A stretch of DNA of 5,484 bases from Thermococcus sp. (GTDB taxonomy: Archaea; Methanobacteriota_B; Thermococci; Thermococcales; Thermococcaceae), in NCBI GenBank assembly GCA_027023165.1, contig JALVWX010000259.1:1-5484 (forward strand), read 5' to 3'. The position numbers and the translations under genes are program-made. Under the pieces are notes generated by a model. It saw nothing but the letters and a program-made list of their open reading frames with translations. It was not told the DNA's origin and searched no databases. This document shows, piece by piece, positions 3,264 to 4,439 of the stretch (position 1 is its first letter; every line of letters starts with the position of its first letter).

Positions 3264-3289
3264 GTGCCCGCTTCACCAGTTTCATCTTT

Positions 3290-3296
3290 GGGGGTG
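3290..3296 (+). promoter_or_regulatory. Shine-Dalgarno that selects the GTG start of thymidylate kinase
   Basis: GGGGGTG lies six bases upstream of GTG 3303. No comparable site precedes the in-frame GTG at 3264. Confidence 0.65.
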
Positions 3297-3302
3297 GCAG
3301 CT

Positions 3303-3926
3303 GTGGGAACTTTCATAGTCATAGAGGGCATCGATGGTGCCGGTAAATCAACTCAGGCAAGGCTTCTCGCCGAATGGTTTAAGGAGCGGGGAAAAGAGGT
3401 TGTTTTGACAAAGGAACCCACCGATACGGCCTTTGGTAAGCTCATAAGGAGGCTCGTCCTGACTGGCGGAAGAGAGGGCATAATAGACGGCGCCAGGATA
3501 AGCCACGAGGCCGAGGCGCTTCTCTTCGCCGCAGACAGGGCGGAGCACGTTGAGAAGCTCATCAAACCGTCTCTCAAAGAGGGTAAAATCGTCATCTCCG
3601 ACCGCTACTTCTACTCATCACTCGCATACCAGTGGGCGCGCGGCCTTGACCTCGAATGGCTGATAGACCTAAACCGCTTCGCGGTGAGGCCTGACCTTGC
3701 CATACTCCTCGACCTTCCTGTAAAGGAGAGCATGAGGCGCATAAACAGGAGGAGCATAAAGAGCGAGTTCGATAAAATAGCGGAACTCCAGAAGGCCGTC
3801 CGCGAGAACTACCTCAAGTTGGCGGAGCGCTTTCCTGAGATGAGGATCGTCAACGCCCTCGCGAGCGTCGAGGACATACACAACGACATCGTGGCGCTCG
3901 TCGAGCACGAGCTTTTCAGAGAGTAG
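3303..3926 (+). CDS. tmk: Thymidylate kinase (dTMP kinase)
   Basis: Phosphorylates dTMP to dTDP with ATP in the cytoplasm, a required step of dTTP synthesis. The 207-residue length is normal for the family. Motifs: P-loop [10 protein letters not shown] at 8-17; KEPT at 37-40 followed by [19 protein letters not shown] at 100-110, the DR(Y/H) dTMP-site motif; [11 protein letters not shown] at 129-139; and an Arg-rich LID-like segment [13 protein letters not shown] at 145-157. The GTG start at 3303 gives MGTFIVIEG, the expected N-terminus, and has a good ribosome site. The longer reading from GTG 3264 adds 13 residues of no family character. It is monocistronic as far as can be seen, with its own promoter, and its stop codon touches the 3' end of the minus-strand sRNA. 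Confidence 0.95.
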
Positions 3927-3992
3927 GGGTCGGCCAGTGCCAGTCTCTTCATTCGGTAGCGAATCAGACCGGTAAACGCTCGTCATTCCCCC
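3926..3992 (-). ncRNA. Box C/D guide sRNA (minus strand)
   Basis: Read on the minus strand from the G run 3992-3988: C box ATGACGA (3986-3980), 12-nt guide (3979-3968), D' box CTGA (3967-3964), 11-nt interval (3963-3953), C' box ATGAAGA (3952-3946), 12-nt guide (3945-3934), D box CCGA (3933-3930), then CCCC (3929-3926). Both guide spacers are exactly 12 nt, the archaeal norm. GGGG/CCCC closes a terminal stem directly after D, with the 3-nt kink-turn bulge (AAT) on the C side, as C/D RNAs require. C, C' and D each depart by one base from RTGATGA/CTGA. The RNA would bind L7Ae, Nop5 and fibrillarin and direct 2'-O-methylation. By the D+5 rule the target bases are the fifth base of ACCGGTAAACGC (D') and of CCAGTGCCAGTC (D). 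I could not identify these targets. The exact ends are inferred. Confidence 0.75.
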
Positions 3993-4054
3993 TTCTTCTT
4001 CCGGTTGGTTTTTAAAAAGCCTTTCTCAAATAAGTTGGGCCGATGACGAGCGTT
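3975..4054. repeat. 12-bp perfect inverted repeat formed by the two sRNA 5' regions
   Basis: AACGCTCGTCAT at 3975-3986 is the reverse complement of ATGACGAGCGTT at 4043-4054. The arms coincide with the C box and first five guide bases of the two divergent sRNAs. The repeat is therefore explained by two related RNA genes rather than by one long hairpin. Confidence 0.85.
4009..4018. promoter_or_regulatory. Palindromic TATA element shared by the two divergent sRNAs
   Basis: TTTTTAAAAA is a perfect palindrome with no other TATA-like element well placed for either RNA. Its centre is about 23-24 bases upstream of G4037 (plus sRNA) and about 22-25 bases upstream of the G run 3992-3988 (minus sRNA), the normal archaeal distance. 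On the minus strand it is preceded by GAGAAAGGC, a good BRE; the plus-side BRE (CCGGTTGG) is poorer, so the plus RNA may be weaker. The T runs could also act as a bidirectional terminator for tmk and the converging membrane-protein operon. Confidence 0.6.
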
Positions 4055-4096
4055 AGCCACGCTGAGTGGTGAGGAAAAGAGGGTTAGCCGAGGCCC
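4037..4096 (+). ncRNA. Box C/D guide sRNA (plus strand)
   Basis: Order: GGGCC (4037-4041), bulge base G, C box ATGACGA (4043-4049), 12-nt guide (4050-4061), D' CTGA (4062-4065), 3-nt interval, C' GTGAGGA (4069-4075), 12-nt guide (4076-4087), D CCGA (4088-4091), GGCCC (4092-4096). The 5-bp terminal stem, 3-nt bulge (GAT), tandem G·A pairs and the G-C pair all fall where the C/D kink-turn needs them. C and D each differ by one base from consensus, giving C·C instead of U·U. By the D+5 rule the D' guide would mark the fifth base of CGTGGCTAACGC. Its first ten bases match a 16S rRNA segment recalled from Thermococcales (ACACGTGGCTAACC). The D guide target is CTAACCCTCTTT, unidentified. It ends one base before the stop codon of the opposing CDS. 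Confidence 0.8.
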
Positions 4097-4097
4097 A

Positions 4098-4421
4098 TCA
4101 GTAGAGCTTTCCGCCTTCCTCCTGGAGAGTTTCCCTCTCGTGCTCAATCTTCTTCTCGTCCTCGAAGAGTTTGGCCCGGTTTGTGTATCCGAGCCTGCTA
4201 AAGAGGCTCGTTGTCGTGTTCATGAACTTTCCTGCGTTCGCGGCGATTATTGAGGCGACTATGAAAAGCCCTACTATGAAAGCGGCCTCGCTCGGCGTGA
4301 AGAACCCGTGCGACACGAGAGCGTGGCCGATCAAGACGGGTATCCCGACGAGAACGAAACCGAGAACGAGGTACCACAGTGCCTTATAACCATACCTCTC
4401 CATGAACATCGCAAAGTCCAT
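4098..4421 (-). CDS. Small two-TM membrane protein, function unknown
   Basis: A 107-residue protein I do not recognise. It has a short amphipathic start, a hydrophobic segment at about 14-36 (ALWYLVLGFVLVGIPVLIG), a short HGFFTPSE turn, and a second hydrophobic segment at about 46-64 (AAFIVGLFIVASIIAANAG). A highly charged tail (82-105, RAKLFEDEKKIEHERETLQEE) is probably helical, perhaps coiled. The likely topology is a hairpin with the tail and N-terminus on the same side. ATG 4421 is chosen because GGGTGAT ends three bases upstream; the in-frame ATG at 4439 lies before that site and would add only MHTGDT. It lies 18 bp downstream of the DUF2334 gene and is probably co-transcribed with it, so it could be a partner in the membrane. 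That link is inference. Confidence 0.75.
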   Translation of the reverse strand: MDFAMFMERYGYKALWYLVLGFVLVGIPVLIGHALVSHGFFTPSEAAFIVGLFIVASIIAANAGKFMNTTTSLFSRLGYTNRAKLFEDEKKIEHERETLQEEGGKLY

Positions 4422-4424
4422 GGT

Positions 4425-4431
4425 ATCACCC
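4425..4431 (-). promoter_or_regulatory. Shine-Dalgarno of the small membrane protein
   Basis: GGGTGAT on the minus strand, then ACC and ATG 4421. It lies in the 18-bp gap after the upstream stop codon, so the second cistron has an SD although the first appears leaderless. Confidence 0.7.
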
Positions 4432-4439
4432 GTGTGCAT

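Follow-up and report, generated by a model that had tools for sequence, protein, structure and literature searches.

Divergent sR12 and sR34 box C/D sRNA genes of Thermococcus, probably transcribed from one central TATA box

Results

Two opposed box C/D sRNA genes downstream of tmk

The window, a 5,484-nucleotide stretch of DNA from Thermococcus sp. (contig JALVWX010000259.1), carries two opposed box C/D plans at 3926–4096, all of whose guides are 12 nt long. Direct reading of both strands bore out the C-N12-D'/C'-N12-D plan and the closing stems on both strands proposed in an earlier, sequence-only reading; the two D boxes read CCGA, not CUGA. The features are listed below; stems, boxes, guides, and BRE sides were read from the sequence.

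3264–3926, plus strand: tmk, thymidylate kinase (Pfam PF02223, E = 4.9e-54; start codon uncertain)
3926–3992, minus strand: box C/D sRNA gene of the sR12 family (T. kodakarensis orthologue: sR42; RF01147 match 3988–3929)
Within 3992–3988 and 3929–3926, minus strand: sR12 closing stem, GGGG/CCCC
3986–3980, minus strand: sR12 box C, AUGACGA
3979–3968, minus strand: sR12 D' guide, 12 nt
3967–3964, minus strand: sR12 box D', CUGA
3952–3946, minus strand: sR12 box C', AUGAAGA
3945–3934, minus strand: sR12 D guide, 12 nt
3933–3930, minus strand: sR12 box D, CCGA
4002–4008, plus strand: BRE side for the sR34 direction, CGGTTGG, not A-rich (window profile score 4.3)
4009–4018, no strand assigned: TTTTTAAAAA, proposed shared TATA box, self-complementary, best profile hit in both directions
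4019–4026, minus strand: BRE side for the sR12 direction, A-rich, GAGAAAGGC (window profile score 7.4)
4034–4096, plus strand: sR34-family box C/D sRNA gene (RF01273 match 4039–4093; start 4034 transferred from T. kodakarensis)
4037–4041 and 4092–4096, plus strand: sR34 closing stem, GGGCC/GGCCC
4043–4049, plus strand: sR34 box C, AUGACGA
4050–4061, plus strand: sR34 D' guide, 12 nt
4062–4065, plus strand: sR34 box D', CUGA
4069–4075, plus strand: sR34 box C', GUGAGGA
4076–4087, plus strand: sR34 D guide, 12 nt
4088–4091, plus strand: sR34 box D, CCGA
4098–4439, minus strand: 113-aa open reading frame, convergent to sR34 (from the ORF list)

The sRNA pair occupies the whole gap between tmk and the 113-aa reading frame. 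The final base of the tmk stop codon (3924–3926) is overlapped by the sR12 3' stem, and the stop codon of the 113-aa frame (4098–4100), which had no Pfam match, lies 1 nt beyond the sR34 stem, with a DUF2334 gene coming next.

The covariance-model search suggested in the sequence-only reading gave a divided result. The sR34 gene scored 76.3 bits against RF01273 (E = 1.2e-13), well above the gathering cut-off of 40, and the sR12 gene scored 31.5 bits against RF01147 (E = 8.5e-4), under the cut-off of 38. The minus-strand gene is assigned to sR12 by its location and its guide GCGTTTACCGGT, and we therefore term it an sR12 relative. The lower score is accompanied by an 11-nt D'-C' spacer (3953–3963) in which a hairpin is possible. 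By eye, this spacer varies in length and is hairpin-like in places (the window, L071, L074, L137, and L138), with longer GC-rich versions in L071-like loci. Folding energy was dropped as support for the two genes, z being -1.05 and -0.89 with 27/200 and 41/200 shuffles equally stable.

The terminal k-turn pair (the fourth letter of UGAUGA with the second of CUGA) was mostly other than U.U in both RNAs across 93 loci. The sR34 genes (n = 93) had C.C in 57, U.U in 18, C.U in 12, and other pairs in 6; among 79 sR12 genes read, with 4 further ones unparsed, the pairs were A.C (20), U.U (18), C.C (14), A.A (8), and others (19). Seven of 12 letters are identical by eye between the D' guides of sR12 and sR34, giving the idea that sR12 is an inverted copy of sR34.

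Guides and predicted rRNA targets

Methylation is directed opposite the fifth nucleotide from box D or D'. The 16S and 23S rRNAs of two genomes (G030 and G010) were searched for guide targets with 200 shuffled guides as a control. Three of the four guides match the G030 23S rRNA inside a single segment of about 75 nt, with sites within 65 nt. The predicted targets are 1958–1968 (U1962; 14/200 shuffled guides equal) for the sR12 D guide, 1999–2009 (G2003; 3/200) for the sR12 D' guide, and 2023–2032 (C2026; 1/200) for the sR34 D guide. C2026 seems to correspond to helix-69 C1920 in E. coli numbering. The sR34 D' guide gave a 10-pair 23S target in G010, starting at 2314, and no 23S target in G030 (198/200 shuffles as good), where this rRNA stretch differs. 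The same guide (window 4050–4061) is strongly conserved and may be an orphan guide in Thermococcus or have another target.

Conservation and layout of the gene pair

We searched 94 Thermococcales genomes, took the region from all 92 sR34 carriers, and measured 93 loci, the window among them. The sR12 partner was detected via its guide motif; sR1 loci were viewed as a control and left out of the counts. sR34 scored over the Rfam cut-off in 92/94 genomes, and RF01147 (sR12) in 14/94 relatives. A divergent sR12 lay upstream of sR34 in 82/92 genomes, the remaining 10 having sR34 without the partner. A search for relocated sR12 with a 15-nt guide pattern, allowing one mismatch, found none in 12 genomes (the 10 with sR34 alone and 2 without sR34), and the pattern was found in both positive controls, G028 and G001.

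The loci fell into four layout classes by their box C to box C interval: class A (56–59 nt; 62/93 loci, window included), class B (41–43 nt; 16 loci), class C (8 nt; L051, L052, and L053), and class D (86 nt; L084 and L092). The class-A intervals comprise 59 distinct sequences in 20 clusters at 75%. The sequence-only reading had placed the comparison among relatives that keep the tmk neighborhood; the pair is indeed kept widely, but not every locus has that neighborhood: tmk was found in 61/93 fetched stretches and not found in 22/62 class-A loci. A tmk tree of 60 rows, the bootstrap of which has not settled, requires three changes to account for the states class A, class B, and sR12 absent. 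Loci without tmk stand outside this tree and span all four classes (for example L058 in A, L078 in B, L051 in C, and L084 in D), and the layout may therefore have changed more often.

Several loci depart from the common plan. In L141, L143, L144, L145, L150, and L151, sR12 is lost and a minus-strand TATA-like element, CTTTAAAA, is retained beside sR34. In L152 (genome G005), sR12 and the TATA box are gone, no TATA being found, and the tmk reading frame continues into sR34. In the class-C loci the two sRNA matches stand head to head, 2 nt apart, with no TATA in between (best profile scores -2.2 and -5.2). In L052 the pair is flanked by gcvPB and DUF2334 genes that converge on it, and each sRNA there may be derived from the 3' terminus of the opposing mRNA. 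The class-D loci have about 44 nt extra with a GC-rich inverted repeat between the minus-strand TATA and sR34, and the profile gave no good plus-strand promoter hit for sR34.

The central TATA element

We scored promoters with a 16-column BRE-TATA profile. Of 30 T. kodakarensis tRNA upstream regions, 23 went into this profile and 7 were excluded for having no promoter hit above threshold. As the sequence-only reading had claimed, TTTTTAAAAA (4009–4018) is its own reverse complement and suitably spaced, its center lying 29.5 bp from box C on the plus strand and 27.5 bp from box C on the minus strand. The symmetry carries less weight than that reading gave it, as the palindrome by itself is nothing special: an AT palindrome of at least 8 nt occurs at 11/23 tRNA promoter TATAs, as it does in 42/62 class-A loci, and the palindrome was rejected as main evidence.

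A TATA was counted as shared when the centers of both best hits were at most 3 bp apart and each was 27–32 bp from its own box C. With the tRNA-promoter profile, both directions fell on one TATA in 60/62 class-A loci (exceptions L076 and L122), a count that does not stand for 62 independent cases because the loci share descent. For 20 representative intervals, the one-TATA geometry arose in 119/4000 dinucleotide shuffles, and with equal scores in 12/4000. The heptamer TTTTTAA is present in 62/62 class-A intervals, and the distance from the TATA to the sR34 box C is 29.5–31.5 bp in 61/62. Two conserved columns, T in 86% on one side and A in 90% on the other, stand mirror-like about 15 bp from the TATA center; the promoter proximal element described for T. 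onnurineus lies near these columns, as far as the cited part of that report goes (PMC5316973).

The mean class-A scores were 4.0 in the plus and 7.9 in the minus direction, compared with 10.0 and 10.2 in class B and 19.5 for tRNA promoters, the back side of which scored 5.2 on the same TATA. Judged by the profile alone, the plus direction of class A thus does not surpass the back side of an ordinary promoter, and it is the fixed distances and the published transcription starts that carry the case. The CGG columns of the sR34-side BRE are conserved at 81–88% in class A. In all 16 class-B loci each gene has a separate TATA at a class-A-like distance from its box C, the two being crossed 16–18 bp apart.

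Transcripts of the T. kodakarensis orthologues

In genome G028, sR34 matched 1226844–1226898 on the minus strand and sR12 matched 1226951–1227008 on the plus strand. These coordinates agree with a published T. kodakarensis table, which identifies G028 as that species; in the table, sR41 has a circle at 1226838–1226899 and a predicted start at 1226903, and sR42 a circle at 1226948–1227017 and a predicted start at 1226948; we therefore identify sR41 as the sR34 orthologue and sR42 as the sR12 orthologue (PMC9014305, where the tabulated starts are taken from Jager 2014). The two starts are 45 bp apart and flank a TATA centered at 1226924.5, at 21.5 bp for sR41 and 23.5 bp for sR42; the median TATA-start distance given for T. 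kodakarensis is 23 bp (Jager 2014, PMC4247193).

According to the same tables, both RNAs accumulate and are circularized: wild-type aligned reads for sR41 and sR42 numbered 1,967 and 12,085 in the small-RNA library and 359 and 226 in total RNA, and in the small-RNA library circular reads dropped in a ligase knockout from 31 to 0 for sR41 and from 7,194 to 10 for sR42 (PMC9014305). Projected onto the window, the starts fall at 3991 and 4034 and the circular-form end at 4038, in agreement with the ends expected beforehand (3988–3992 on the minus and 4037 on the plus strand).

Discussion

Two divergent box C/D sRNA genes, as first read from the letters, are borne out here by the Rfam matches, the conservation of the pair, and the published sR41 and sR42 RNAs. 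The sR12 match below its Rfam cut-off and folds no more stable than those of shuffled sequences would fit a chance occurrence of C/D-like plans that are not genuine genes, a reading to which we give practically no weight: it is already contradicted by the retention of sR34 in 92/94 genomes and of the pair in 82/92, and by the orthologous RNAs sequenced and circularized in T. kodakarensis.

It is likely that one central TATA box drives divergent transcription of sR12 (minus strand) and sR34 (plus strand), both known archaeal methylation-guide genes. Such use, well supported by the 60/62 loci and the T. kodakarensis starts, had been proposed in the sequence-only reading. The genes, their geometry, and its conservation are observed, as are, in published data, the RNAs and starts of T. 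kodakarensis; that both genes depend on TTTTTAAAAA in the organism of the window is an inference. TBP would bind the TTTTTAA element, which is nearly symmetric, the side on which TFB docks would set the direction, and RNA polymerase would start about 20–24 bp from the TATA on either strand. Each RNA would then be closed by its stem and k-turn, be partly circularized, assemble with L7Ae, Nop5, and fibrillarin into a predicted box C/D particle, and guide predicted 2'-O-methylation; the protein steps of this assembly are those generally known for C/D sRNPs. Retention of the minus-strand TATA-like element in the six sR12-less genomes of the tmk-linked group counts against a shared TATA, and this element may also serve as the AT-rich stretch that directly precedes the sR34 start.

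An alternative that we consider unlikely assigns the central TATA to a single sRNA, most probably sR12 with its A-rich BRE side, sR34 being processed from transcripts that read through from tmk or another upstream gene. The weak plus-side BRE fits this, as does processing from read-through transcripts, presented in the cited part of one report as the usual route for archaeal C/D sRNAs (PMC7994747). Relatives without a promoter exist, namely the three 8-nt loci, including the one between convergent gcvPB and DUF2334 genes, and L152; read-through is the likely state of class C and of L152. Against it for class A stand the listed sR41 start at 21.5 bp from the TATA and the near-constant distance from the TATA to the sR34 box C, which extends to loci where tmk was not found; the 22 such class-A loci have the same TATA distances, although the exceptions L076 and L122 belong to them. 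Flanking-gene directions from mechanically called ORFs are unreliable in GC-rich DNA, and only Pfam-matched genes were counted: the right-hand gene is directed away from sR12 in 4/7 class-A loci checked (ABC transporters in L063, L120, and L128, a methyltransferase in L079) and toward it in 3/7 (L059, L071, and L126). In the four loci sR12 is therefore outside the read-through path of that gene, which also disfavors read-through.

Transcription of both genes from the AT-rich center could also come from two separate, mostly overlapping promoters, each gene having its own TBP register inside the AT run. The best plus and minus registers are 1–3 bp apart in part of class A, with 3 bp in the window, and class B has two crossed TATAs throughout; on the other side, the registers are identical in 37/62 class-A loci and the AT run in the window is 10 bp, which accommodates only one TBP. 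We regard this arrangement as highly improbable and favor a single TATA serving both genes.

More tentatively, and with doubt, the single TATA might be a selected device coupling two guides of neighboring 23S sites (U1962, G2003, and C2026). One TBP-TFB complex can serve one direction at a time, so that such a device would link the ratio of the two RNAs; by altering the spacing, lineages would move between a TATA in common, two crossed TATAs, and read-through without a promoter while retaining both guides.

Bidirectional initiation from one archaeal TATA has been interpreted as yielding useless antisense RNA; at this locus it seems to be retained as the promoter of two working genes. With the natural variants (TATA shared, crossed, or absent, or one gene lost), the rules of spacing and the part that the BRE plays in setting direction can be tested directly in an archaeon amenable to genetics. 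The two RNA families are already known, as is the bidirectional promoter with one TATA. As far as our searches show, the evidence for one TATA serving two functional guides, its wide conservation, and a natural layout series are new within the literature searched; among titles and abstract openings we found no description of a shared promoter for the sR12/sR34 pair, and the divergent pair itself may be in print, for example in Gaspin 2000.

The window has the same boxes, guides, and divergent order as Rfam sR34 (RF01273) and sR12 (RF01147) and T. kodakarensis sR41/sR42, differing from RF01147 in the 11-nt D'-C' spacer of its sR12 gene and the score under the cut-off; the two Rfam entries make no mention of a shared promoter. 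Divergent tRNA pairs of T. kodakarensis, used as a control, are likewise divergent stable-RNA genes with a short intergenic region, but all 4 examined have two TATAs each, with centers 33–46 bp apart and genes 92–110 bp apart. A further likeness is to the BRE-TATA-BRE bidirectional promoters of P. furiosus, described in the cited sections of Grunberger 2019 as having one TATA midway between starts about 50 bp apart (49 in vitro), comparable to the one TATA between two starts 45 bp apart at the T. kodakarensis orthologue. Whereas the second P. furiosus transcript is presumed there to be a non-functional antisense RNA (PMC6640164), both products here are guide RNAs, and, unlike those promoters as described, the layout is conserved over many genomes and its BREs are less clear.
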